A stretch of 58,964 nucleotides of DNA from an uncultured Gammaproteobacteria bacterium (GTDB lineage Bacteria; Pseudomonadota; Gammaproteobacteria; Pseudomonadales; Pseudohongiellaceae). Shown here piece by piece: positions 16,662 to 36,367 of the stretch. Within the stretch, counting starts at the first letter, position 1. Every line of letters starts with the position of its first letter. The stretch covers positions 1 through 58,964 of the forward strand of contig CAJXPR010000007.1 of the NCBI GenBank assembly GCA_913058135.1, written 5' to 3'. A model generated the notes under the pieces. It saw only the letters and a program-made list of their open reading frames with translations, did no database searches and was not told the origin of the DNA. The position numbers and the translations under genes were made by a program.

Positions 16662-16947
16662 GGGTACTCCCTGTTGAATTGCCTGCAGTCTATCAACAAA
16701 TAGCCATCACACGAAACATCCGAACAAATGACTATCTATTGGTGCAATTGAGTGTATAGTCGGTGATACGAGATAACTCACTCTCAGAACGCTGCACCAC
16801 ACAAGCTTGGTTGTCGCGTTCAGCCCTTCCTCCCCCTCTTGCTTTTAACGTTGCTCCTTTTGGATGCAACAGCTGTCTTTGTGCCGGGAAAACCCGTGCC
16901 GCATCGTCGGGCATCTCGCCCACGCCAGAACTATCAGGTACCCGTTT

Positions 16948-18162
16948 ATGAATACCACAAGAAAATTCTTGTCGACGATCGTAAAAATTACGTCGCTCAG
17001 CGCCGCCTTCATCGCCTGCAGCGTGTCTGGCTCGCTGTTCGCCCAGAGCATTCCGAACCTGGGTGAAGCCGCGCAGTTCTCTGTGCTGGCAGGCTCTACA
17101 GTGACCAACACCGGCTCCAGTGTTATCACTGGCGAATTGGGCGTCAGCCCCGGCACTGCTATCACGGGCTTTCCGCCAGGCATCGTGCAGCAGGGTCAAA
17201 TCCGCTCCAATGACGCCGTGGCGGCACAGGCCGTCGCCGACGCGCGGGTTGCCTACAACAATCTTGCCGGACAGGCGGTGACCACTGAGCAGGCAGCTGC
17301 CATGGGTTCGGGCATGGTGCTGATACCAGGTGTTTATCACTTCACCAGTGCTGCCGATATTACCGGTTCCCTGGTGCTTGACGCACAAGGCAGCTCCACT
17401 GCAGTGTTTGTGTTCCAGGTGGAGGAAGCTCTCACATTGAACAACAATGCGGCTATCAGTCTGATCAACGGTGCGACCGCCAGCAACGTGTTCTGGCAGG
17501 TTGGCACGTCGGCAACACTGGGCACCAGTTCTGCCTTTTACGGCAGCATCCTGGCCGGTGCCGGCATCACCCTGAACACCGGCGCCACGCTGGTGGGCCG
17601 CGCGCTGGCGGGAACTGCCGTGACGCTGGATAGCAGCACGGTGACGCTGGCTGCAGCGTCCACCGGTGGCACACCAACCCCGACTCCTACGCCCACTCCT
17701 GTCCCGGGCACTGAATTGCCGCCTGTTGACAAAGTCATAGACTCCCAGGGGCAGCCGTCAACTGCCGTCATCAAGGCGGGTGCAACGTCAAATGGCGGCG
17801 CCAGCTATGGCAGCAGCTTTTCAACCAGCGAGCAGATCGTGGTCAACGGTGAGCTGACCTACGAAGCCGGTGACGTTGGCAAGGCTGCCAGCGTCTTTGT
17901 GGTGATCAAGTTCACTTCAACGTCGGGCACAGCGCAGTGGTTGATGGAAAATGGTGATGGCGACTTCTTTGCCTGGGATCAGAATGTAGAATCGCTGGTG
18001 TCCATGTACAGCAGCAACAGCATCGGCACCAGCATCGCCGGCAAGCTGTTCGGCGGCACGCTGGAAGCAGGCCGCTACGAAGTCTTTATCGGTTATACCG
18101 CACAAGGCGGTGCACTGATCTACAGCGAAACGCCCATGTCATTTGTGGTGACTCAACTGTAG
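16948..18162 (+). CDS. DUF3494 ice-binding protein with C-terminal beta domain
   Basis: I start at the ATG at 16948, which opens a signal peptide of about 33 residues. The frame extends upstream but without a likely start. Residues about 35-240 form the DUF3494 ice-binding beta-helix: LGEAAQFSVLAG, ITGELGVSPG, LVLDAQGSSTAVFVFQ and VFWQVG are recognisable. A Thr-Pro repeat linker follows, then a second all-beta domain of about 130 residues of unknown class. These secreted proteins bind ice or inhibit its recrystallisation, which suits a cold or marine habitat. A strong terminator follows. Confidence 0.9.
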   Translation: MNTTRKFLSTIVKITSLSAAFIACSVSGSLFAQSIPNLGEAAQFSVLAGSTVTNTGSSVITGELGVSPGTAITGFPPGIVQQGQIRSNDAVAAQAVADARVAYNNLAGQAVTTEQAAAMGSGMVLIPGVYHFTSAADITGSLVLDAQGSSTAVFVFQVEEALTLNNNAAISLINGATASNVFWQVGTSATLGTSSAFYGSILAGAGITLNTGATLVGRALAGTAVTLDSSTVTLAAASTGGTPTPTPTPTPVPGTELPPVDKVIDSQGQPSTAVIKAGATSNGGASYGSSFSTSEQIVVNGELTYEAGDVGKAASVFVVIKFTSTSGTAQWLMENGDGDFFAWDQNVESLVSMYSSNSIGTSIAGKLFGGTLEAGRYEVFIGYTAQGGALIYSETPMSFVVTQL

Positions 18163-18232: not shown

Positions 18233-19171
18233 TTACCTGATGGCTATTGGATTCACGACAACCTGGACCGCGCCTTTGAATTTTGGCTGGCCCAGCACAA
18301 ACATGAATTCGTGCACATCATCGGCGGCCAGTTCGGCAGTATTCATGCTTTCCAGAATATACACACCCTGTTTTGCCAGCAATGTCTGATGTACTGCAAA
18401 CACGCGCTGCGGGTTCTCAAACGGTATGACCTCCAGAGCCGGCGTGTCCGCACCTATCGCCACAACACCAAGCTCCGCCAGATATTCTGCTCCCTGCACA
18501 CCGAGACCCGGCTGACTGGAGATATAACGCTCGTTGTCGACACCCAGCAATTGCAACCAGCCCGTGTGGAACAGCACTACGTCGCCACGTTGAATCTGTA
18601 TCCCTTGGGCAGCAGCTGCCGCGTCAATCTCGGCGCGGTTGAAGGCCGCACCTTCGCTCACCATGTCCACACCGAAGTGCCGGGTCATATCCAGCAGCAC
18701 GCCACGGCTTACAATAGGCGGGATATCGTGTGTGCCCAGCTCTAACAGACCGCTGTCACCGACAATTTCAGCGGCCGTCAGGCCGTTGTAGTACTGATTG
18801 CCTATGCCCAGGTGGCCCAGGCCATCGATCTGTGAGCCGATCCCAAAACTGGTTCTGACCCGTTCGTCGTTCGAGGTCACTACATCGGCGCCCACCTCGA
18901 CATTGGCGCCGGAGGCCACGATGTCTATCTCATACGTACGCCCTCCGTACGCGGGTGCACCTTCCTCAGTATCAATTCCCAGCGAGTAGACTTTGCCGGT
19001 ACTGATCAGTTTTGCTGCGTCCAGCACCTGTTCGGGGCTCAGATTGTTGGCAGCGCCGATACGGTCATCCGCACCGTATTGCGATGGCGCCCAGTCCTGC
19101 GCGCTGAGCACAGTGCAAACGCAGCCGGCAACGACGCCTGCGGCTACGACCAGCAGTGATTTCTTATTCAT
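18233..19171 (-). CDS. Exported cyclase-family hydrolase (PF04199, kynurenine-formamidase-like)
   Basis: The 312-residue protein has a signal peptide ending near LSAQD. The metal-binding motif of the cyclase family, usually HxGTHxDxPxH, appears in the variant form SQIDGLGHLGIG, as in the larger GAANNLSPEQV subgroup. VLFHTGW and ADTPALEV follow. Characterised family members hydrolyse formylkynurenine or isatin; the substrate here is unknown. It lies 15 nt downstream of the amidotransferase-like gene on the same strand. Confidence 0.83.
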   Translation of the reverse strand: MNKKSLLVVAAGVVAGCVCTVLSAQDWAPSQYGADDRIGAANNLSPEQVLDAAKLISTGKVYSLGIDTEEGAPAYGGRTYEIDIVASGANVEVGADVVTSNDERVRTSFGIGSQIDGLGHLGIGNQYYNGLTAAEIVGDSGLLELGTHDIPPIVSRGVLLDMTRHFGVDMVSEGAAFNRAEIDAAAAAQGIQIQRGDVVLFHTGWLQLLGVDNERYISSQPGLGVQGAEYLAELGVVAIGADTPALEVIPFENPQRVFAVHQTLLAKQGVYILESMNTAELAADDVHEFMFVLGQPKFKGAVQVVVNPIAIR

Positions 19172-19186
19172 TGTTATCTCCAGTTT

Positions 19187-19885
19187 TTATGCACTTTGTT
19201 CCACAAACTCACGTATCCACTTACCTACCAGCAAACCATCGTGCGGTGCAGACAGGCTGGCCCGGGCACGCTCAACCAGTGCCGGCGGCAATTGATCGGC
19301 ACGCAGATCCAGCAAGGCCAGGGCGTACTCAACGCTGAACTCGGGATGCGCCTGAATGGCCAGCAATTTGCCGGGTATATAGAAACCCGCATTGGGGCAA
19401 AAGTCATTACTCAGCAAGCGCTGCGCATCATCGGGCAGGGCCAGCACCTGGTCCTGGTGGCTGGCGATCAACTCGACCGACTGACGTTCGTCGACAAATG
19501 GCGGGTGATCCTCCAGCTGATAGCGCATAATGCCCAGCCCCCAACCAGCATCCGAGCGCCCGGCCCGTCCACCCAGGGCGTGGGCCAGCAGCTGATGACC
19601 GAAACACACACCCACCAGAATCCTGCCGCCGTGATAAAGCGTTCGCACATACTGCCGCAACGTCACAACCCAGGGCTCATCAGCAAAGCTGTCGTATTTG
19701 CTGCCGGTAATCAGGAATGCATCGTATAACGCGGGATTCTCCGGATACTGATTATCGATGACACGATAAATGGATATTTCCCAGTCATCGCTCATCAACA
19801 GATGCCTGAACATGTCACCATAACTGACGTAGCGAGCCTGTAAGGTATCGTAGAGTGTATCGGCATCAAGAATAGCAAGCTTCAT
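19187..19885 (-). CDS. Class I glutamine-amidotransferase-like protein
   Basis: This 232-residue single-domain protein has the nucleophile elbow GVCFGHQ, with Cys about 20 residues after YDAFLITGS, and a late HPEFS providing His-Glu of the triad. Free-standing members act as gamma-glutamyl hydrolases or detoxifying peptidases, while others are GuaA-like. No synthetase partner is near. It is divergent from katG across 149 bp and precedes the cyclase gene. Confidence 0.85.
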   Translation of the reverse strand: MKLAILDADTLYDTLQARYVSYGDMFRHLLMSDDWEISIYRVIDNQYPENPALYDAFLITGSKYDSFADEPWVVTLRQYVRTLYHGGRILVGVCFGHQLLAHALGGRAGRSDAGWGLGIMRYQLEDHPPFVDERQSVELIASHQDQVLALPDDAQRLLSNDFCPNAGFYIPGKLLAIQAHPEFSVEYALALLDLRADQLPPALVERARASLSAPHDGLLVGKWIREFVEQSA

Positions 19886-20010
19886 GAGGACATTTCGCTC
19901 CGGTCAAACGCAGTTTTTGCATAAAGAATATCTATCATATCAGTTCAAAAAACAACTTTAACCTATGGATCGGTGATGATGTATAGTCTTGCTTCAAGAC
20001 TGCGCTTTAA

Positions 20011-22260
<2,250 letters not shown>

Positions 22261-22590: not shown

Positions 22591-24018
22591 ATGTCCAGTA
22601 CGATACGTACGCCCGACGCCATCAAAACCTCTAGCCAATTCCGACGCCTGCCTATGCTGACAACCCTGGCCGCCTGCGCCCTGTTCTGCACCGGTCTTGC
22701 CTCGGGCGCTGAAGACTGGGCACTGCCGGACGAACTCAGCGACAGGCTCGAGGACCTGCAATCCAATGAACGCAATTTCGTGACCAACGGCAGCTTTCTG
22801 GCCTTCATGCCGGCCCGGCAGATGGAACTTGAACTGGCCAGCCGCGACGCCGCCGGTATACAGTCGCTGATCACTGATCTGATGGCGGTTGCCGGCGAAA
22901 TGGGTTATGACCCGAGCCGGGACATGGGCGCCATGCCTCTCAATTTAACGTCAAACAGTTTTAACAGCGGGGTGCTGCTGCCGGCCATCCTGCGCGACGA
23001 CAAACGCGAGCCCGGCCCGTTCAGTGTACACCGTTACATGTTCCCGGAGTCCGGTATCCCCACCTTTGCCGGCGCACCGGTTGCCGTGTGGCCGGAGGAC
23101 CTGACTGCGGGCAATGTGGACGTCGCCATCGTCGGCATTCCCAGTGACATGAGCAGTGGCCGCCGTAACGCGGAAGCCGGTCCGAATGTCATGCGCTCAC
23201 TGGACACTATTGCCGAACTGGACATCCAGACACTGGTCGACCCCATGAAGGTACTGACTGTTGTCGACTACGGTGATTTCCGTGTCGATAACATGAGCAT
23301 CGAACGCTCAGTCGCGCACGTTACTGCCATGGTCGCCGAAACCGCAGGCACCAACGCAACGCCGATGATGGTTGGTGGCGATACATCAATACTGTACCCG
23401 GCAGTCAAGGGCGTGGCTCAAACTCATGGCAATGGCAGTTTCGGACTGGTGCATTTCAGCGCCCACCCGGATGCGCGCCGCGATGCAGTGCACACCATCT
23501 CCGACGACCAGGCTCTGTTCATGCTGCTCGATGAGGGCATCATTGACGGTTCCGAGCTGATCACGGTGGGCCTGCGCGGCGACGCGGCAACGGAAACCAC
23601 ACTGCAGTGGCTGCAGGACAATGGGGTACGTTATCACACGATGGCCGAAGTCAATCGCAGCGGTTACGGCGCGGTGATGCAGCGAGTGGTCAGTGAACTG
23701 GATGCCCTGCCTGAACAACTGTTTGTCTCCATTGATGTCAGCGTCATTGACCCGGGTGACATGATAGCTGCAGGACGGGTGTCCGCCAACGGGCTGAGCA
23801 TCCACGATGTGACATCCACTGTGCGTTACCTGTGCGCGGCGCGGGAGATTGTTGGATTTGAAATTACCGACATGGCTCCTGTGCTGGACCTTTCCCGGCT
23901 GTCCGCGCTGAACTCCAATGCCGTTCTCAATGCCTGCCTGGTGGGTATGGCATCGCGCAAGGCGGGATTTGCGCCGGACGCCGTTCACCCACTGGCACTC
24001 GACCATGGCCAGGACTGA
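22591..24018 (+). CDS. Exported ureohydrolase-fold protein lacking metal ligands (pseudoenzyme)
   Basis: The 475-residue protein has an N-terminal signal (about residues 20-39), an acidic helical region and an arginase/agmatinase domain from about residue 155. The three metal motifs are altered. GGDH is GGDT (Thr265), DAHxD is SAHPD (Ser290, His292 and Asp294) and DxD is DVS (Ser384). The fold signature SIDVSVIDP is otherwise intact. A binuclear Mn site is therefore unlikely. Its neighbour 64 nt downstream is a paralogue with a complete site, so this one is probably a structural or regulatory partner. It could instead bind a single metal or another ligand. Confidence 0.85.
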   Translation: MSSTIRTPDAIKTSSQFRRLPMLTTLAACALFCTGLASGAEDWALPDELSDRLEDLQSNERNFVTNGSFLAFMPARQMELELASRDAAGIQSLITDLMAVAGEMGYDPSRDMGAMPLNLTSNSFNSGVLLPAILRDDKREPGPFSVHRYMFPESGIPTFAGAPVAVWPEDLTAGNVDVAIVGIPSDMSSGRRNAEAGPNVMRSLDTIAELDIQTLVDPMKVLTVVDYGDFRVDNMSIERSVAHVTAMVAETAGTNATPMMVGGDTSILYPAVKGVAQTHGNGSFGLVHFSAHPDARRDAVHTISDDQALFMLLDEGIIDGSELITVGLRGDAATETTLQWLQDNGVRYHTMAEVNRSGYGAVMQRVVSELDALPEQLFVSIDVSVIDPGDMIAAGRVSANGLSIHDVTSTVRYLCAAREIVGFEITDMAPVLDLSRLSALNSNAVLNACLVGMASRKAGFAPDAVHPLALDHGQD

Positions 24019-24082
24019 GCCTGTGGCCCACCGCCATGATTCTGGTGGCGACCCGAAACCTGTACTGATGACTGGAAAACGT

Positions 24083-25729
24083 ATGATGAATATTCCGACA
24101 CCCAAGACTTTAACAACCGCCAGACTGCTGCCCCTTGCTGCCGCCATCCTGTTGGCCGGGCTTGGTGTCAGCACCCAATTGGCTGCGCAGCCGGCATCAG
24201 CAGCCGAGGAACCAGAGCACGTTACTGGCACCAATCCCTATCCGTATGAGACCGAAGACCCGCGCGAGGAAGAGCGTCCCGGTATTGAGCTGCCGGACAG
24301 CGTCACCGACAAACTTTCCCTGCTCAGCGAGGAACAGATTGAGTTCCTGGAAAGCAGTGACGCCGGGCGCTTTCGTGGCGATCTGGAAAAAACGGTTGAA
24401 TACCTGGAAGAGAATACTCCCGAGCATATCCTGACCTGGGTTGAAGCCATGCAAAGTGTGGTCAGCGCCCAGCGGTACACTGAAGGCCGTGACGCACCCA
24501 ATATAGCACTGAACACCGACTCACCAATCTTTAATGCCTGGCGTCTGCGGCGCCCCGCGTCCATGGACCCGGAACGTGAGGCGGGCAGCATTTCCCTGGG
24601 CCGCTACAACGGCGGGGGCGGGCCACCCACATTCGGTGGTTTCCCGTTGGCACTGACGCCGGAAGACCTGGAAGCCGCAGAGGTGGACGTGGCCATTGTC
24701 GGCGCACCTTTGAACATGGGGTCGGGCTGGCGTGATTCGGGCGCACAGGCCACCACCGACATGCGTGTCCGCGGCCGTGCTCTGGGTGGCATGGACCAGT
24801 ACGTGCAGGTCAATCCCGGGAGCGTCCTCAACATCGTCGACTATGGTGATATTGCCATCGACAACGCCAGCACTGAGCGCTCCATGCAGCACATCAGGGA
24901 AGTCGTACGCGAGATCGGCAATACCGGTGCAGTCCCCGTCATCGTGGGCGGTGATCATTCACTGTCCTACCCCAACGTGGCCGCCATGGCCGACGTTTAC
25001 GGCAAGGAAGAAGTGTCAGTCATTCACTTCGACTCGCACTACGACGCCTGGTGGGGCAGTCCCCACCTGATCAGTCACGGGGCACCGGTGTACCGCCTGC
25101 TGAATGAGGGACACGTCCGTATACAAGACTATATCCAGGTCGGACTGCGCTCCAGTGGCCCTGACGAGGCAGCGTTCAAATGGATGCGGGAAAACGGCAT
25201 GCGCTACCACACCATGGCCGAAATCGAACAGCGCGGCTGGGAGGCGACTCTGGACCGGGTTGTAAAGGAGGCCAGTGAAGAAGGCCGCAAACTCTATATC
25301 TCTTTTGACATCGACGTCATCGACCCGGCATTTGCCGTGGCGACCGGTACGCCCGTGTCAGGTGGTCTGGATATGCGTGAGTCGATCACCATCGTCCGAC
25401 GCCTGTGCGCCGAAGCCAACGTCATTGGTTTTGAACTGGTGGAACTGCACCCCTACCTTGACCCGACCTATATGACCACACTGAACAGTGCCCACGTCAT
25501 CAAGGCCTGCCTGACCGGCCTGGCCATGCGGGAAGAAGGCCTGACCGAGACGCATTACCTGAGCCCGGTGTCTTCCGAGCACGCAGTGGATGATTACTAC
25601 GGCGACCAGGCAGACTTCCTGCGTCACACCGAGGCACTGGAGAGAAGGGGCGAAGACGATGAAGAGGAAGCGTCAGAGGACGAAGGCGCAGAAGGTGACG
25701 AAGTGATCTCCCCCACGCCGACGCCCTGA
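24083..25729 (+). CDS. Exported agmatinase/arginase-family ureohydrolase
   Basis: I start at the ATG at 24083 (GGAAAAC upstream). It opens a signal peptide ending near ASA at residue 40; the longer frame upstream overlaps the preceding gene. The metal site is complete: His292 in GGDHS, Asp317/His319/Asp321 in HFDSHYD, and Asp409/Asp411 in SFDIDVIDP. Enzymes of this family hydrolyse guanidino compounds to urea; periplasmic versions with a long N-terminal acidic region (about 150 residues) are uncommon. The last 30 residues are very acidic. It forms an operon with the metal-site-deficient paralogue upstream. Confidence 0.88.
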   Translation: MMNIPTPKTLTTARLLPLAAAILLAGLGVSTQLAAQPASAAEEPEHVTGTNPYPYETEDPREEERPGIELPDSVTDKLSLLSEEQIEFLESSDAGRFRGDLEKTVEYLEENTPEHILTWVEAMQSVVSAQRYTEGRDAPNIALNTDSPIFNAWRLRRPASMDPEREAGSISLGRYNGGGGPPTFGGFPLALTPEDLEAAEVDVAIVGAPLNMGSGWRDSGAQATTDMRVRGRALGGMDQYVQVNPGSVLNIVDYGDIAIDNASTERSMQHIREVVREIGNTGAVPVIVGGDHSLSYPNVAAMADVYGKEEVSVIHFDSHYDAWWGSPHLISHGAPVYRLLNEGHVRIQDYIQVGLRSSGPDEAAFKWMRENGMRYHTMAEIEQRGWEATLDRVVKEASEEGRKLYISFDIDVIDPAFAVATGTPVSGGLDMRESITIVRRLCAEANVIGFELVELHPYLDPTYMTTLNSAHVIKACLTGLAMREEGLTETHYLSPVSSEHAVDDYYGDQADFLRHTEALERRGEDDEEEASEDEGAEGDEVISPTPTP

Positions 25730-33233: not shown

Positions 33234-33493
33234 CAATTATTTTGTCGCATGAAAGACTCGTCTCGTACCGCTTTGAAGGCCTTCTGCGATAAGGCTCGAC
33301 CCTTTTTGTTGTGATTTTTTCCCAGCCGTGTTTCCCCCCAAGACCAGAAAAATCGCGGCTTTCCGCGTTGTCAATCCTTTCAAGACGAGTAGATAAGTCT
33401 TAGAATCGCGCCGCGCCGGTACTGTGACAGTGCCGGATCACTTTATTTAAGAAAATTCGTGACGTGAAGGAACCGACATATTGGGGAGAACCG

Positions 33494-36367
33494 ATGTCAA
33501 CTATCTATAAGAATTTCAAGCGCAGTAAGAAAGGTGTTTTTTCCCACCTTATCTCTGCATGTATTGCTTCGTCACTTGTAGTACCTGCCATGGCAGTAGC
33601 ACAAGATGACGCACCGGAACTTGAAGAAGTTGTGGTAACTGGCTCTTATATTCGTAACAGTGCATTCGCGGGTGCATCACCGGTAGACACCGTCAGTCAG
33701 GCAGACCTGCTTGAGTCTGGTGCGCCGGCAATGGGTCAATTCATACGTGACCTGCCGTACACACAAAACACCGATGTCGTGGCCAACGTAAACTCCACCC
33801 AGAACGGTCAGCAGGATTCCAATGCAGCGCGTTTCAACTTGCGTGGCCTGGGCGTCAACAGCACACTGACGCTGGTTGATGGTACGCGATCAGTGAACGA
33901 CGGTGCCGTTGCTTCGCTGCTTCCCGATATTGCCATGAACCGGCTTGAGGTCGTTCTGGATGGCGGCTCTGCGCTGTACGGTTCTGATGCGGTGGCCGGT
34001 GTAGTCAACCTGATTCCCATAAAAGAGTTCGACGGCATTCGTGTCCGCAGCTATTACCAGACGGACGAGGATCGCTCCTTCGAGGAGCCGAAACTGGCTG
34101 TCCTTTTTGGCCGCTCTTTTGACAACAATATCAACTGGGTAGCTGCACTGGAAGCATCAAAGAAAACACCGGTGCTGAGATCTGAACGTCCTCGCTACCT
34201 GGAGTATGATATTTCCGAATCCACCTCCGGCAACCCCGGAGTATTCCAGCGCGCCGCTGGCGATATCGGTGCCGGCGGTACTGGCAGACTGTTGCGTGAC
34301 CCGGCCTGCGGTACCTACAACGATGGCGCGGAAGACAAAACCCAATCCGGTGCGTACCCTAGTGGTCAACCGTATGGGGCCAGCAACTGCCTTTTCCATT
34401 ATGGCCCGCAGCATGACTACGCCCGCGGCAATGTTGATTACACTTTTTTCAACAACCTGACCTGGGACGCCACCGATCGCCTGCAATTTGAATTGCAGTC
34501 CAGCTATAACTACCGCGAATCACGCTACAACACTTCGTCCAGCCTCTCGCAGAGCACCAACAACCAGTTTGCTCTGCTGGTGCCGGGCGACCATCCCGCC
34601 AACCCTTTCGGCTTTGACGTTGTGCCTCGCAACTGGCGTCCGTTTACCGGCAACCAGGCCACCCAGCCATCCTTCCTGGAAGATGACGGCCGCGAAGTAC
34701 AGGATTACCGCTACTACACTAACAGCAACAAGCTCAGTGCACGCTATGACATCACTGACACCTGGACCGGCTACAGCTATTACACGATTCAGGAAACACG
34801 ACGCAGTGTCGAAAGCCGAACTCTGTTGCTGCCCCGTCTGCAGGCTGCGCTTGATGGCCGCGGCGGTCCTGACGCTGACGAATACTTCAACCCGTTTGGC
34901 TCTGCCGATCCGCGCTCGCCCGACTATGTTCAGGGTGTGACCAGCAACAGCCAGGAACTGGTGGACTGGCTGTACAACGAACAGAATCAGCAGAAAGTCA
35001 GCCGTAATAACCTGGAGATATTCGAGACCATGGCTACGGGTGAAGTGTTCCAGACGCCCTGGGGTGCCTCACAGATGGCAGCCGGTTTCCAGCGTCGCGA
35101 AGCACGGGTACGTGACTACCCGAACCCGTTCTCGGTACTCGGCCAGAACTACAACAGTTCGATCACCGATGCACCGCCTGTCGCCAATGACTACGATGAC
35201 AGCGTTAATGCGTTCTTTGTCGAGTTCGAGGTTCCCCTGTACGAAACGCTGAGCCTGCAACTGGCTGCACGTAATGAAAAGTTCACGGACCAGAATCTGG
35301 AGACCACCACACCCAAGATCGCGCTGCGCTGGGAAGCCTTGCCCGATCTGGCACTGCGTGCCTCCTGGAGTGAAAGCTTCCTGGCCCCTGCACCGGGTGC
35401 CGACCGGGCCTTCAACCCGAACGAAGGCTGCGGCGAAGTGTTCTCCGGTACCGATCCGATCACTGGCGGCACCCTGGCGGGTTCAACCAGCTGCTCATCC
35501 GGAAACCCGGACATTCGTCCTGAAACCTCCGAGATCACCAATATCGGTTTCACCTGGGAGCCCCTGGGCGAGCTGAGCCTGAGTGCTGATTTCCAGCGCA
35601 TCGACTACCAGGACCGTATTCGCGCGCTGAGTACCGTTGACGCGGTAGAGCTGCAGTTTGCGCAGATGCTCAACGCCATCGGCTCCACCCCTGCTGCGTA
35701 TGATGCCACACCCGGCTCGGCAACCCGGACTGCGGCCAACGCCTGGCTGGCAGCTCAGGGCCCGTTGACAGGCCCTGGCGTACAGCGCAGCGATGCAGAT
35801 CAGTCTGTCGTCAAGACCATTCGTAACTCGGCCAATATCGCCGAGGTCGCGATTGATCTGGTGGACGTCAAGGCGCGGTATTCAATCCCGACCAACACAC
35901 TGGGCAACTTCACCACAACACTGAGCGCCTCGTACTTTGCCAAGTATGAGTACACAGACCTGTTTGGTGTAGTACGTGACGCACGAGGCCGTCAGAACGG
36001 CGACAGCGGCATTGTGCCGCCGATGCCAAAACTGAAGGCCAATGCCCGACTGAGCTGGTTCAAGGACAATCACAGTGCCTCCATGTCGGCCAACTATCAG
36101 CACCACGTGACCACTGACGGCTCGTTCTTTGCATTCACAACCGGATACAAAGCGCCACGCCTGATTGATTCACAGACGCTGGTTAACGCCCAGTACTCCT
36201 ATCTGTTTGATAACTTCTACGATAGCGAGTTGACCCTGAGTGCCGGTGTCAGCAACCTGTTTGACCAGGAAGCTCAGCGTCTGCCGCAACTGGGTGGTTT
36301 TGAAACCCGTCTGCAAACACCATGGGGACGTCAGTTCTGGATCAGCCTGGACTGGCAGCCGTTCTAA
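33494..36367 (+). CDS. TonB-dependent outer-membrane receptor
   Basis: I start at the ATG at 33494 (GGGGAGAA upstream), giving 957 residues. A long signal ending at AVAQ is followed by the TonB-box-like EEVVVTGSYIR, the plug domain (FNLRGLGVNSTLTLVDG, GSALYGSDAVAGVVN) and a beta barrel ending in an aromatic residue (DWQPF). It imports an unknown large substrate such as a siderophore, glycan or peptide. The plug style (GSYIRN, RG-x-G-x-x-x-T-L) is of the Xanthomonas/Caulobacter/Alteromonas nutrient-receptor type. No TonB/ExbBD or transporter gene is adjacent. A strong terminator follows. Confidence 0.94.
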   Translation: MSTIYKNFKRSKKGVFSHLISACIASSLVVPAMAVAQDDAPELEEVVVTGSYIRNSAFAGASPVDTVSQADLLESGAPAMGQFIRDLPYTQNTDVVANVNSTQNGQQDSNAARFNLRGLGVNSTLTLVDGTRSVNDGAVASLLPDIAMNRLEVVLDGGSALYGSDAVAGVVNLIPIKEFDGIRVRSYYQTDEDRSFEEPKLAVLFGRSFDNNINWVAALEASKKTPVLRSERPRYLEYDISESTSGNPGVFQRAAGDIGAGGTGRLLRDPACGTYNDGAEDKTQSGAYPSGQPYGASNCLFHYGPQHDYARGNVDYTFFNNLTWDATDRLQFELQSSYNYRESRYNTSSSLSQSTNNQFALLVPGDHPANPFGFDVVPRNWRPFTGNQATQPSFLEDDGREVQDYRYYTNSNKLSARYDITDTWTGYSYYTIQETRRSVESRTLLLPRLQAALDGRGGPDADEYFNPFGSADPRSPDYVQGVTSNSQELVDWLYNEQNQQKVSRNNLEIFETMATGEVFQTPWGASQMAAGFQRREARVRDYPNPFSVLGQNYNSSITDAPPVANDYDDSVNAFFVEFEVPLYETLSLQLAARNEKFTDQNLETTTPKIALRWEALPDLALRASWSESFLAPAPGADRAFNPNEGCGEVFSGTDPITGGTLAGSTSCSSGNPDIRPETSEITNIGFTWEPLGELSLSADFQRIDYQDRIRALSTVDAVELQFAQMLNAIGSTPAAYDATPGSATRTAANAWLAAQGPLTGPGVQRSDADQSVVKTIRNSANIAEVAIDLVDVKARYSIPTNTLGNFTTTLSASYFAKYEYTDLFGVVRDARGRQNGDSGIVPPMPKLKANARLSWFKDNHSASMSANYQHHVTTDGSFFAFTTGYKAPRLIDSQTLVNAQYSYLFDNFYDSELTLSAGVSNLFDQEAQRLPQLGGFETRLQTPWGRQFWISLDWQPF

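Follow-up and report, generated by a model that had tools for sequence, protein, structure and literature searches.

The window analysed here, a stretch of 58,964 nucleotides (contig CAJXPR010000007.1, assembly GCA_913058135.1) from an uncultured gammaproteobacterium of the Pseudohongiellaceae, carries two tandem ureohydrolase genes on the + strand (22591..25729), the first of which (B) encodes a protein with an altered metal site and the second (A) a protein with an intact one. We propose, with a probability of about 0.6, that the two proteins make up a single exported ureohydrolase, in which A would be the catalytic subunit and B a non-catalytic one. The genes and the residues concerned are listed below; other genomes, loci and contigs of the own genome are given, where needed, as G, L and C numbers.

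22591..24018, + strand: B, ureohydrolase-fold pseudoenzyme, putatively exported, 475 amino acids (PF00491, ligand columns)
24086..25729, + strand: A, ureohydrolase with intact dinuclear metal site, putatively exported, 547 amino acids (PF00491, ligand columns)
24956..25045, + strand: A metal ligands H291, D316, H318 and D320 (alignment columns)
25307..25315, + strand: A metal ligands D408 and D410, DxD motif (alignment columns)
23383..23385, + strand: B residue 265, Thr for a metal-ligand His (GGDT; alignment)
23458..23460, + strand: B residue 290, Ser for a metal-ligand Asp (HFSAHPD; alignment)
23503..23505, + strand: B residue 305, Asp against active-site His 331 of A (HG motif); Asp in 65/65 B frames
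23740..23742, + strand: B residue 384, Ser for the second Asp of DxD; Ser in 65/65 B frames
23776..23778, + strand: B residue 396, Arg against Thr 422 of A (TGTP loop); Arg in 64/65 B frames
23869..23871, + strand: B residue 427, Asp against Glu 453 of A; Asp in 64/65 B frames

Sequence alignments demonstrated that A retains all metal-site residues (H291, D316, H318, D320, D408 and D410, plus E453), as an earlier note on this DNA had stated for the second protein, and that B carries T265, S290, H292, D294, D382, S384 and D427 in the same seven columns. The earlier note had also described all three metal motifs of B as changed, which is correct in that each motif is altered, but only by one ligand each, such that three of the six ligands are gone and three are kept. 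Judged by the known arginase geometry, each of the two metals in the window B would presumably lose two of its four protein ligands. The same division (HDHDDDE in A, Ser as the sixth ligand in B) was found in 27 exported A and 25 B proteins from own-genus loci, and is not a chance outcome. It recurs in loci L058-L095, where 84 of the 88 matches were complete (45 A and 39 B) and the four incomplete ones stayed unclassed. Some genomes are represented twice, so that not all frames are independent.

The pocket replacements were counted over all complete frames (79 A and 65 B, some genomes occurring twice; 38 A and 36 B in a first count), because the B alignment, A3, which was also used for the B model and combined the window with 35 B frames out of 39 in L058-L095, omitted the earliest-branching B (L058); the corresponding A alignment, A4, held the window and 37 of the 45 A frames. 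A, for its part, carries the active-site His and both Thr in 79/79 frames; Ser as the sixth ligand also served to define the B class, and no frame stayed unclassed in this count. In arginase numbering, we take the fixed B positions to be His141, Asp234, Thr246 and Glu277. The ligand columns of B could be arranged in stages, from HDHDDSD in Novosphingobium RL4, through forms with Glu, Asn or Arg as the fourth ligand and others with Gly as the second, to the Thr-Ser form of the window type. Even a B with one lost metal ligand carries the other three replacements; the pocket of B has been rebuilt and not randomly decayed.

Purifying selection acts on B to a degree comparable with that on A. Comparison of the window B with its three nearest relatives gave a ratio of non-synonymous to synonymous differences (pN/pS) of 0.084-0.131, which rose to 0.23-0.30 for three more distant relatives; the values for the window A were 0.052-0.099 and 0.23-0.25, respectively. 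The possibility that B is a decaying pseudogene was ruled out by its pN/pS of 0.08-0.13 among near relatives, together with its retention in 19 genomes.

Both proteins matched the Pfam Arginase family PF00491, A with 229 and B with 151 bits against a cut-off of 22, whilst five NCBIfam models for agmatinase, arginase and formimidoylglutamase matched A and B below their curated cut-offs in every case, the agmatinase equivalog scoring 147 (A) and 93 bits (B) versus 174.3. A structure model of B gave the ureohydrolase fold in a fold search (TMt up to 0.90), with the alpha/beta/alpha arrangement of the arginase superfamily; the search with the A model covered mainly residues 170-501. By descent and fold B is a superfamily member, and by its motifs it is predicted to be no active enzyme. 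A ribosome-binding-like AGGAG lies 5' of B. The open reading frame of A as listed begins at 23918, within B, but the true start is most likely the ATG at 24086, 67 bp past the B stop, at which a signal-like segment begins; the ATG at 24083 is an alternative.

The terminal features of the two proteins are as follows.

22591..22710, + strand: B export-like signal (residues 1-40), expected to be cleaved near ASGA/EDW (mean Kyte-Doolittle hydropathy 2.14)
24086..24205, + strand: A export-like signal, about residues 1-40 (mean Kyte-Doolittle hydropathy 2.65)
22711..23052, + strand: B N-terminal extension, helical residues 47-104, net charge -9 over 113 residues, kept in relatives
24206..24619, + strand: A acidic N-terminal extension, helical residues 71-129, net charge -17 over 138 residues
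25571..25729, + strand: A acidic C-terminal tail, net charge -16 over 52 residues, present in window-type A

Export signals were judged by hydropathy, and on this basis A and B are both predicted to be exported. A hydrophobic N-terminal segment was present in 56 of 61 rows of exported A and B proteins; the five rows without one were the A proteins of L081 (cut by a contig end) and L083, and the short L126-L128, for which the anchor failed. The signal peptides and long acidic N-terminal regions described in the earlier note were thus recovered on both proteins, the former as signal-like N-termini, and the latter are not seen in solved agmatinase-type structures. A lipobox was flagged in 5/26 B rows (plausible in L043, L069, L081 and L089, doubtful in the window) and in 1/35 A rows, that row being one with a failed anchor; some B subunits may therefore be lipoproteins, anchoring the complex to the membrane in some species.

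Window-type A was found whole in 19 genomes, and in 19/19 of these B was whole and adjacent, as a conserved pairing would have it. Absence of B beside orthologues of A, which the earlier note had set against its own proposal, was accordingly not seen for window-type A, though it was seen for distant exported A proteins in the stretches read. Two further genomes, G005 (L056) and UBA6173 (L095), had window-type remnants only, in the form of B fragments. Seven of the 14 other genomes of the genus (G002, G003, G007, G008, G010, G013 and G014) harboured an A-B-A-B or A-B-A locus as well as the window-type pair, and G005 an A-B-A-B locus plus a broken window-type B. G001 encoded a cytosolic-type gene and an A fragment (L132) beside a TonB receptor, with no urease over the cut-off; G004, G009, G011 and G012 encoded one cytosolic-type gene only, which in G006 (72% complete) was accompanied by a piece of 63 positions.

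A PF00491 search of the own genome retrieved nine genes, one of them an ordinary 315-amino-acid agmatinase-like gene adjoining what by eye is an arginine-decarboxylase-like gene, and the other eight forming four adjacent A+B pairs: that of the window, two on C10 and one on C74. The C10 genes are ordered A-B-A-B, with a 4-bp overlap at 2/2 A-B junctions and a B-A junction that depends on the chosen start. The C74 pair, with 91% (A) and 83% (B) protein identity to the first C10 pair, is followed by the start of another A at the contig end; as congeners with such genes have a single A-B-A-B or A-B-A locus, and the listed contamination is 1.3%, C74 may either represent a genuine second locus or be foreign to this genome. 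The further A gene inside which C74 ends (L010, 1-477) carries the peptide PVSYTHLTLPT, which we take to be a translated sequencing-adapter artefact.

Named genomes were scanned with the B alignment and two peptide patterns (one common to some A), a procedure that favours loci with B. The 37 loci retrieved came from Pseudohongiella, other gammaproteobacterial metagenome-assembled genomes (MAGs), Woeseia, a Xanthomonadaceae MAG, Novosphingobium nitrogenifigens, a Sphingomonadales MAG, Alteromonas confluentis and a Marinimicrobia-labelled MAG, and a separate search found the system on a Novosphingobium plasmid. Surveys with the A model, which count the own genome each time and score at most four candidates per genome, recovered 1/369 genomes of the class at E<=1e-50, 11/390 of the order and 2/398 of the phylum at E<=1e-70. 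The 11 of the order comprised paired genes in G000, G007, G010, G014 and G685, a solo divergent A in G445, G534, G557, G612 and G719, and the fragment in G001, solo meaning that no B lay within the 11-20 kb read around the gene. The solo exported A of G612 and that of G719 are followed by PpiC and Urt genes, and another solo exported A occurs in G1061. In Alteromonas confluentis (L089, 5105-13171), two solo exported A genes surround a PpiC-HupE pair, followed by a full A-B pair. Throughout the B clade, A and B remain neighbours, whether ordered B-A or A-B.

On C10, the genes 3' of the A-B-A-B block encode a PpiC-type prolyl isomerase (Rotamase_2), HupE_UreJ_2, a binding protein of periplasmic type scoring above the UrtA cut-off (570 bits), two permeases, one ABC ATPase and, by similarity, a second, and UreD; urease alpha is found on the same contig at 15450-17141. 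A TonB-dependent receptor lies upstream in 8/8 congener loci of this type and on C74, and C10 opens with a partial receptor of this kind. In 13 genomes, PpiC and HupE share a cluster with exported ureohydrolases; nine of these belong to the own genus, and the others are those of L058, L069, L089 and L090. In L090, PpiC is next to A, and HupE about 6 kb away, behind Urt genes. When control HupE loci were drawn from the class (the best-scoring one in each of 30 genomes with about 1.5 kb of flank, one being another HupE locus of the own genome), PpiC of this type was found in 1/30, by a profile built from three members of this group, and a ureohydrolase in 0/30. The 1/30 rules out PpiC-HupE as a generic cassette.

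Urease alpha was over the cut-off in 14/19 window-type genomes versus 33/143 in the class draw (own genome included). Amongst ten genomes of the genus (own included), urease tracked the exported genes, being full in G000, G002, G003, G007 and G008, a fragment in G005, and not found over the cut-off in G001, G004 (85% complete), G006 (72% complete) and G009. The association is looser outside the genus: no urease over the cut-off was found in the Marinimicrobia-labelled MAG with its A-B pair, nor in three genomes with a short solo A.

The earlier note knew of no described system of this kind, a remark that does not stand, as metformin hydrolase (MefH, or MetCaCb) and dimethylguanidine hydrolase (DmgH) are reported as heteromers with metal-free pseudoenzyme subunits (PMC11399263, PMC11271267). 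Metformin hydrolase, also named MfmAB, is known from Aminobacter and Pseudomonas; enzymes of this type are marked by an alpha2beta4 heterohexamer with nickel, in which both subunits are required. The MefH genes used here were those of the Pseudomonas hydrolytica KHPS2 plasmid (accessions from PMC11647477), and like the window pair, MefH and DmgH are encoded by adjacent genes for an alpha subunit and a beta subunit with a degenerate metal site. The MefH subunits (357 and 348 amino acids), however, lack the hydrophobic start and the N-terminal extension that A and B both have, and the ligand columns of MefH beta read RGQDNNE, compared with TSHDDSD in the window B. MefH alpha and beta share 34% identity (188 bits), whereas the window A and MefH alpha share 25% (94 bits), and the window B and MefH beta 21% (48 bits); the window A and B scored 254-269 bits against each other, and MefH alpha or beta at most 94 bits against the A and B proteins of the window, C10 and C74. 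According to one of these reports (PMC11399263), MefH and DmgH needed HypA/HypB for their activation; the own genome differs in having no HypA match. A search for HypA, with HypB not searched, gave no match in four of six carrier genomes (own, G007, G010 and that of L069), and recovered the positive control, the MefH plasmid; the missing HypA in these four fits metal loading outside the cytoplasm.

The phylogeny was inferred by maximum likelihood from 93 rows with the ligand columns removed. Identical proteins were entered once, and twenty locus ids (repeats or close congeners) and the incomplete L087, L093 and L094 were removed, so that the tree contains neither the congeners' window-type rows nor the A-B-A rows; the program flagged long branches, both MefH rows included. 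MefH alpha and beta were sisters (100/99), apart from A and B, and all 26 B rows formed one clade (100/100) that joined eight exported A rows at 94/76. With B a single clade apart from the sister MefH subunits, the inactive partner therefore appears to have arisen separately here, and the tree and pairwise scores together ruled out B as an orthologue of MefH beta. Two divergent cytosolic rows (L039 and L040) were placed next to the exported ones, and the branch that subtends all of the latter is weak (80/31), so that a single clade of exported proteins is not claimed. It is plausible, from these sequences, that a single exported enzyme came first, followed by duplication and loss of the metal centre in one copy, though the tree leaves the root unsettled.

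Agmatinase SpeB, guanidinobutyrase, guanidinopropionase and arginase have the same PF00491 domain, fold and ligands as A, but their solved structures comprise about 290-330 amino acids without the extension of A and B. The guanidine hydrolase of Synechocystis (PDB 7esr) and the guanidinase of Nitrospira inopinata (9fek) are single-gene cytoplasmic enzymes, and neither is known to have a pseudoenzyme partner. A tandem pair in a putative member of the Limnocylindrales and 56 MetCaCb-like pairs resemble the window in their arrangement (PMC11399263, PMC11271267); the sections of those reports covered here make no mention of export or of coupling to PpiC or Urt genes, and some of these pairs may overlap with the present clade. 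No exported or periplasmic ureohydrolase, nor such a pair, was found described in the portion of the open-licence PMC literature covered.

From what is shown here, namely sequences, ligands, ancestry, pairing, selection and gene context, we infer the following for export, complex formation, metal, substrate and use. Sec-type signals would direct A and B across the inner membrane; once in the periplasm, the two would fold and join into a mixed oligomer, in which A alone would hold the two-metal centre and act as sole catalyst. B, its centre rebuilt, would complete the interfaces and perhaps cap the pocket of A, similar to the beta subunit of metformin hydrolase. A would hydrolyse a guanidino compound outside the cytoplasm to urea and an amine or amino acid. 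At A-B-A-B loci, the urea would be taken up by the UrtABCDE-type transporter and then split by urease, and this version is probably a nitrogen-scavenging route. For the window-type pair in urease-less genomes, it is presumably the other product that is used. The urea-import reading is thus a good one for the A-B-A-B system and only a possible one for the window pair.

Several observations weigh against a two-subunit exported enzyme with these links. Distant exported A proteins occur without B in the stretches read (L124, L125 and L140, the shorter L126-L128, and two in L089), and an exported A therefore needs no B in principle; two congeners have A-B-A, and the early-branching B of L058 has lost one metal ligand only. 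Five of the 19 window-type genomes (L069, L071, L072, L073 and L074) have neither urease nor UrtA over the cut-off, so that the product of the window-type pair need not be used as urea. PpiC and HupE stand beside only 1/19 window-type loci (L069) in the stretches read, the urease and Urt link being one of A-B-A-B loci; as the L069 genome has no urease match, PpiC and HupE can hardly serve urease there. HupE_UreJ_2 is common, being over the cut-off in 39/143 class genomes and encoded five times in the own genome (C4, C10, C61, C76 and C147), and nickel is therefore only a guess from HupE. HypA was also found in two of the six carriers tested, Alteromonas (L089) and N. nitrogenifigens (L090), in the latter roughly 12 kb from the pair on one contig with it, near what by eye is a hydrogenase-like gene.

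Other roles are conceivable for B. It could be a separate exported binding protein or sensor that works beside A, its pocket (Asp 305, Ser 384, Arg 396 and Asp 427) binding substrate or product without metal. The fixation of these residues in 64 or 65 of 65 frames, at positions where A is equally fixed for different ones, would suit a remodelled pocket, and the plausible lipobox in 4/26 B rows would suit a membrane anchor for some B proteins. We nevertheless consider this unlikely, given that the replacements could merely fill an empty metal site, that the dead partner in the known family binds the enzyme (MefH; PMC11399263, PMC11271267), and that B adjoins A wherever a contig end does not cut the pair. 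Separate homo-oligomers of A and B, with the duplicate B kept for another reason such as chaperoning, would agree with the existence of solo exported A proteins and with the A-B-A loci, which break a one-to-one stoichiometry; this is distinctly unlikely in view of the neighbours kept in both gene orders over the B clade and of a purifying selection on B of the same order as on A. Lastly, B might itself be catalytic, using one metal or some other chemistry on a different guanidino or amidine substrate, which would make the pair two enzymes in series. Three of the six ligands are indeed kept in B (His 292, Asp 294 and Asp 382), and five of six in the B of Novosphingobium RL4, yet both metal positions in the window B are short of two of their four ligands, on the known arginase geometry, and the active-site His is Asp in every B frame, RL4 included, which renders this highly improbable. 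A catalytic A with a non-catalytic B in one exported enzyme is the reading we prefer.

Genes 5' of the pair, at 18233-22260, encode a putative cyclase of family PF04199 that begins with a signal-like segment, as well as a glutamine-amidotransferase-like protein and a catalase-peroxidase; homologues of these lie near the pair in four genomes of the genus (the window, L052/L060, L053/L059 and L054). An ice-binding-like protein (PF11999, 197 bits) is encoded at 16864-18162 (+ strand), and a TonB-dependent receptor at 33464-35998 (+ strand), about 8 kb 3' of the pair.

More tentatively, and at somewhat less than even odds, the pair may belong to an unrecorded extracytoplasmic route for guanidino nitrogen, in which a two-subunit ureohydrolase would operate with its own periplasmic prolyl isomerase and a HupE-type transporter, and only urea (by the UrtABCDE-type transporter, followed by urease) or the amine would be imported. 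Its inactive subunit would have arisen independently of that of metformin hydrolase, by fixed replacements, and would now be an essential structural or ligand-sensing partner. Judged by sequence, this looks like an exported, separately evolved enzyme-pseudoenzyme ureohydrolase tied to urea uptake, of which no example was found in the literature searched (open-licence PMC). If true, pairs of active and dead ureohydrolases would have evolved at least twice, as metformin hydrolase and in the exported lineage. The B proteins would then provide a natural series of dead sites, in which the number of lost ligands rises from one (Novosphingobium) to three (the window), for studying how an enzyme becomes a non-catalytic partner. 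The finding also suggests that some bacteria may harvest guanidino nitrogen before uptake, which would bear on the natural fate of guanidino compounds.

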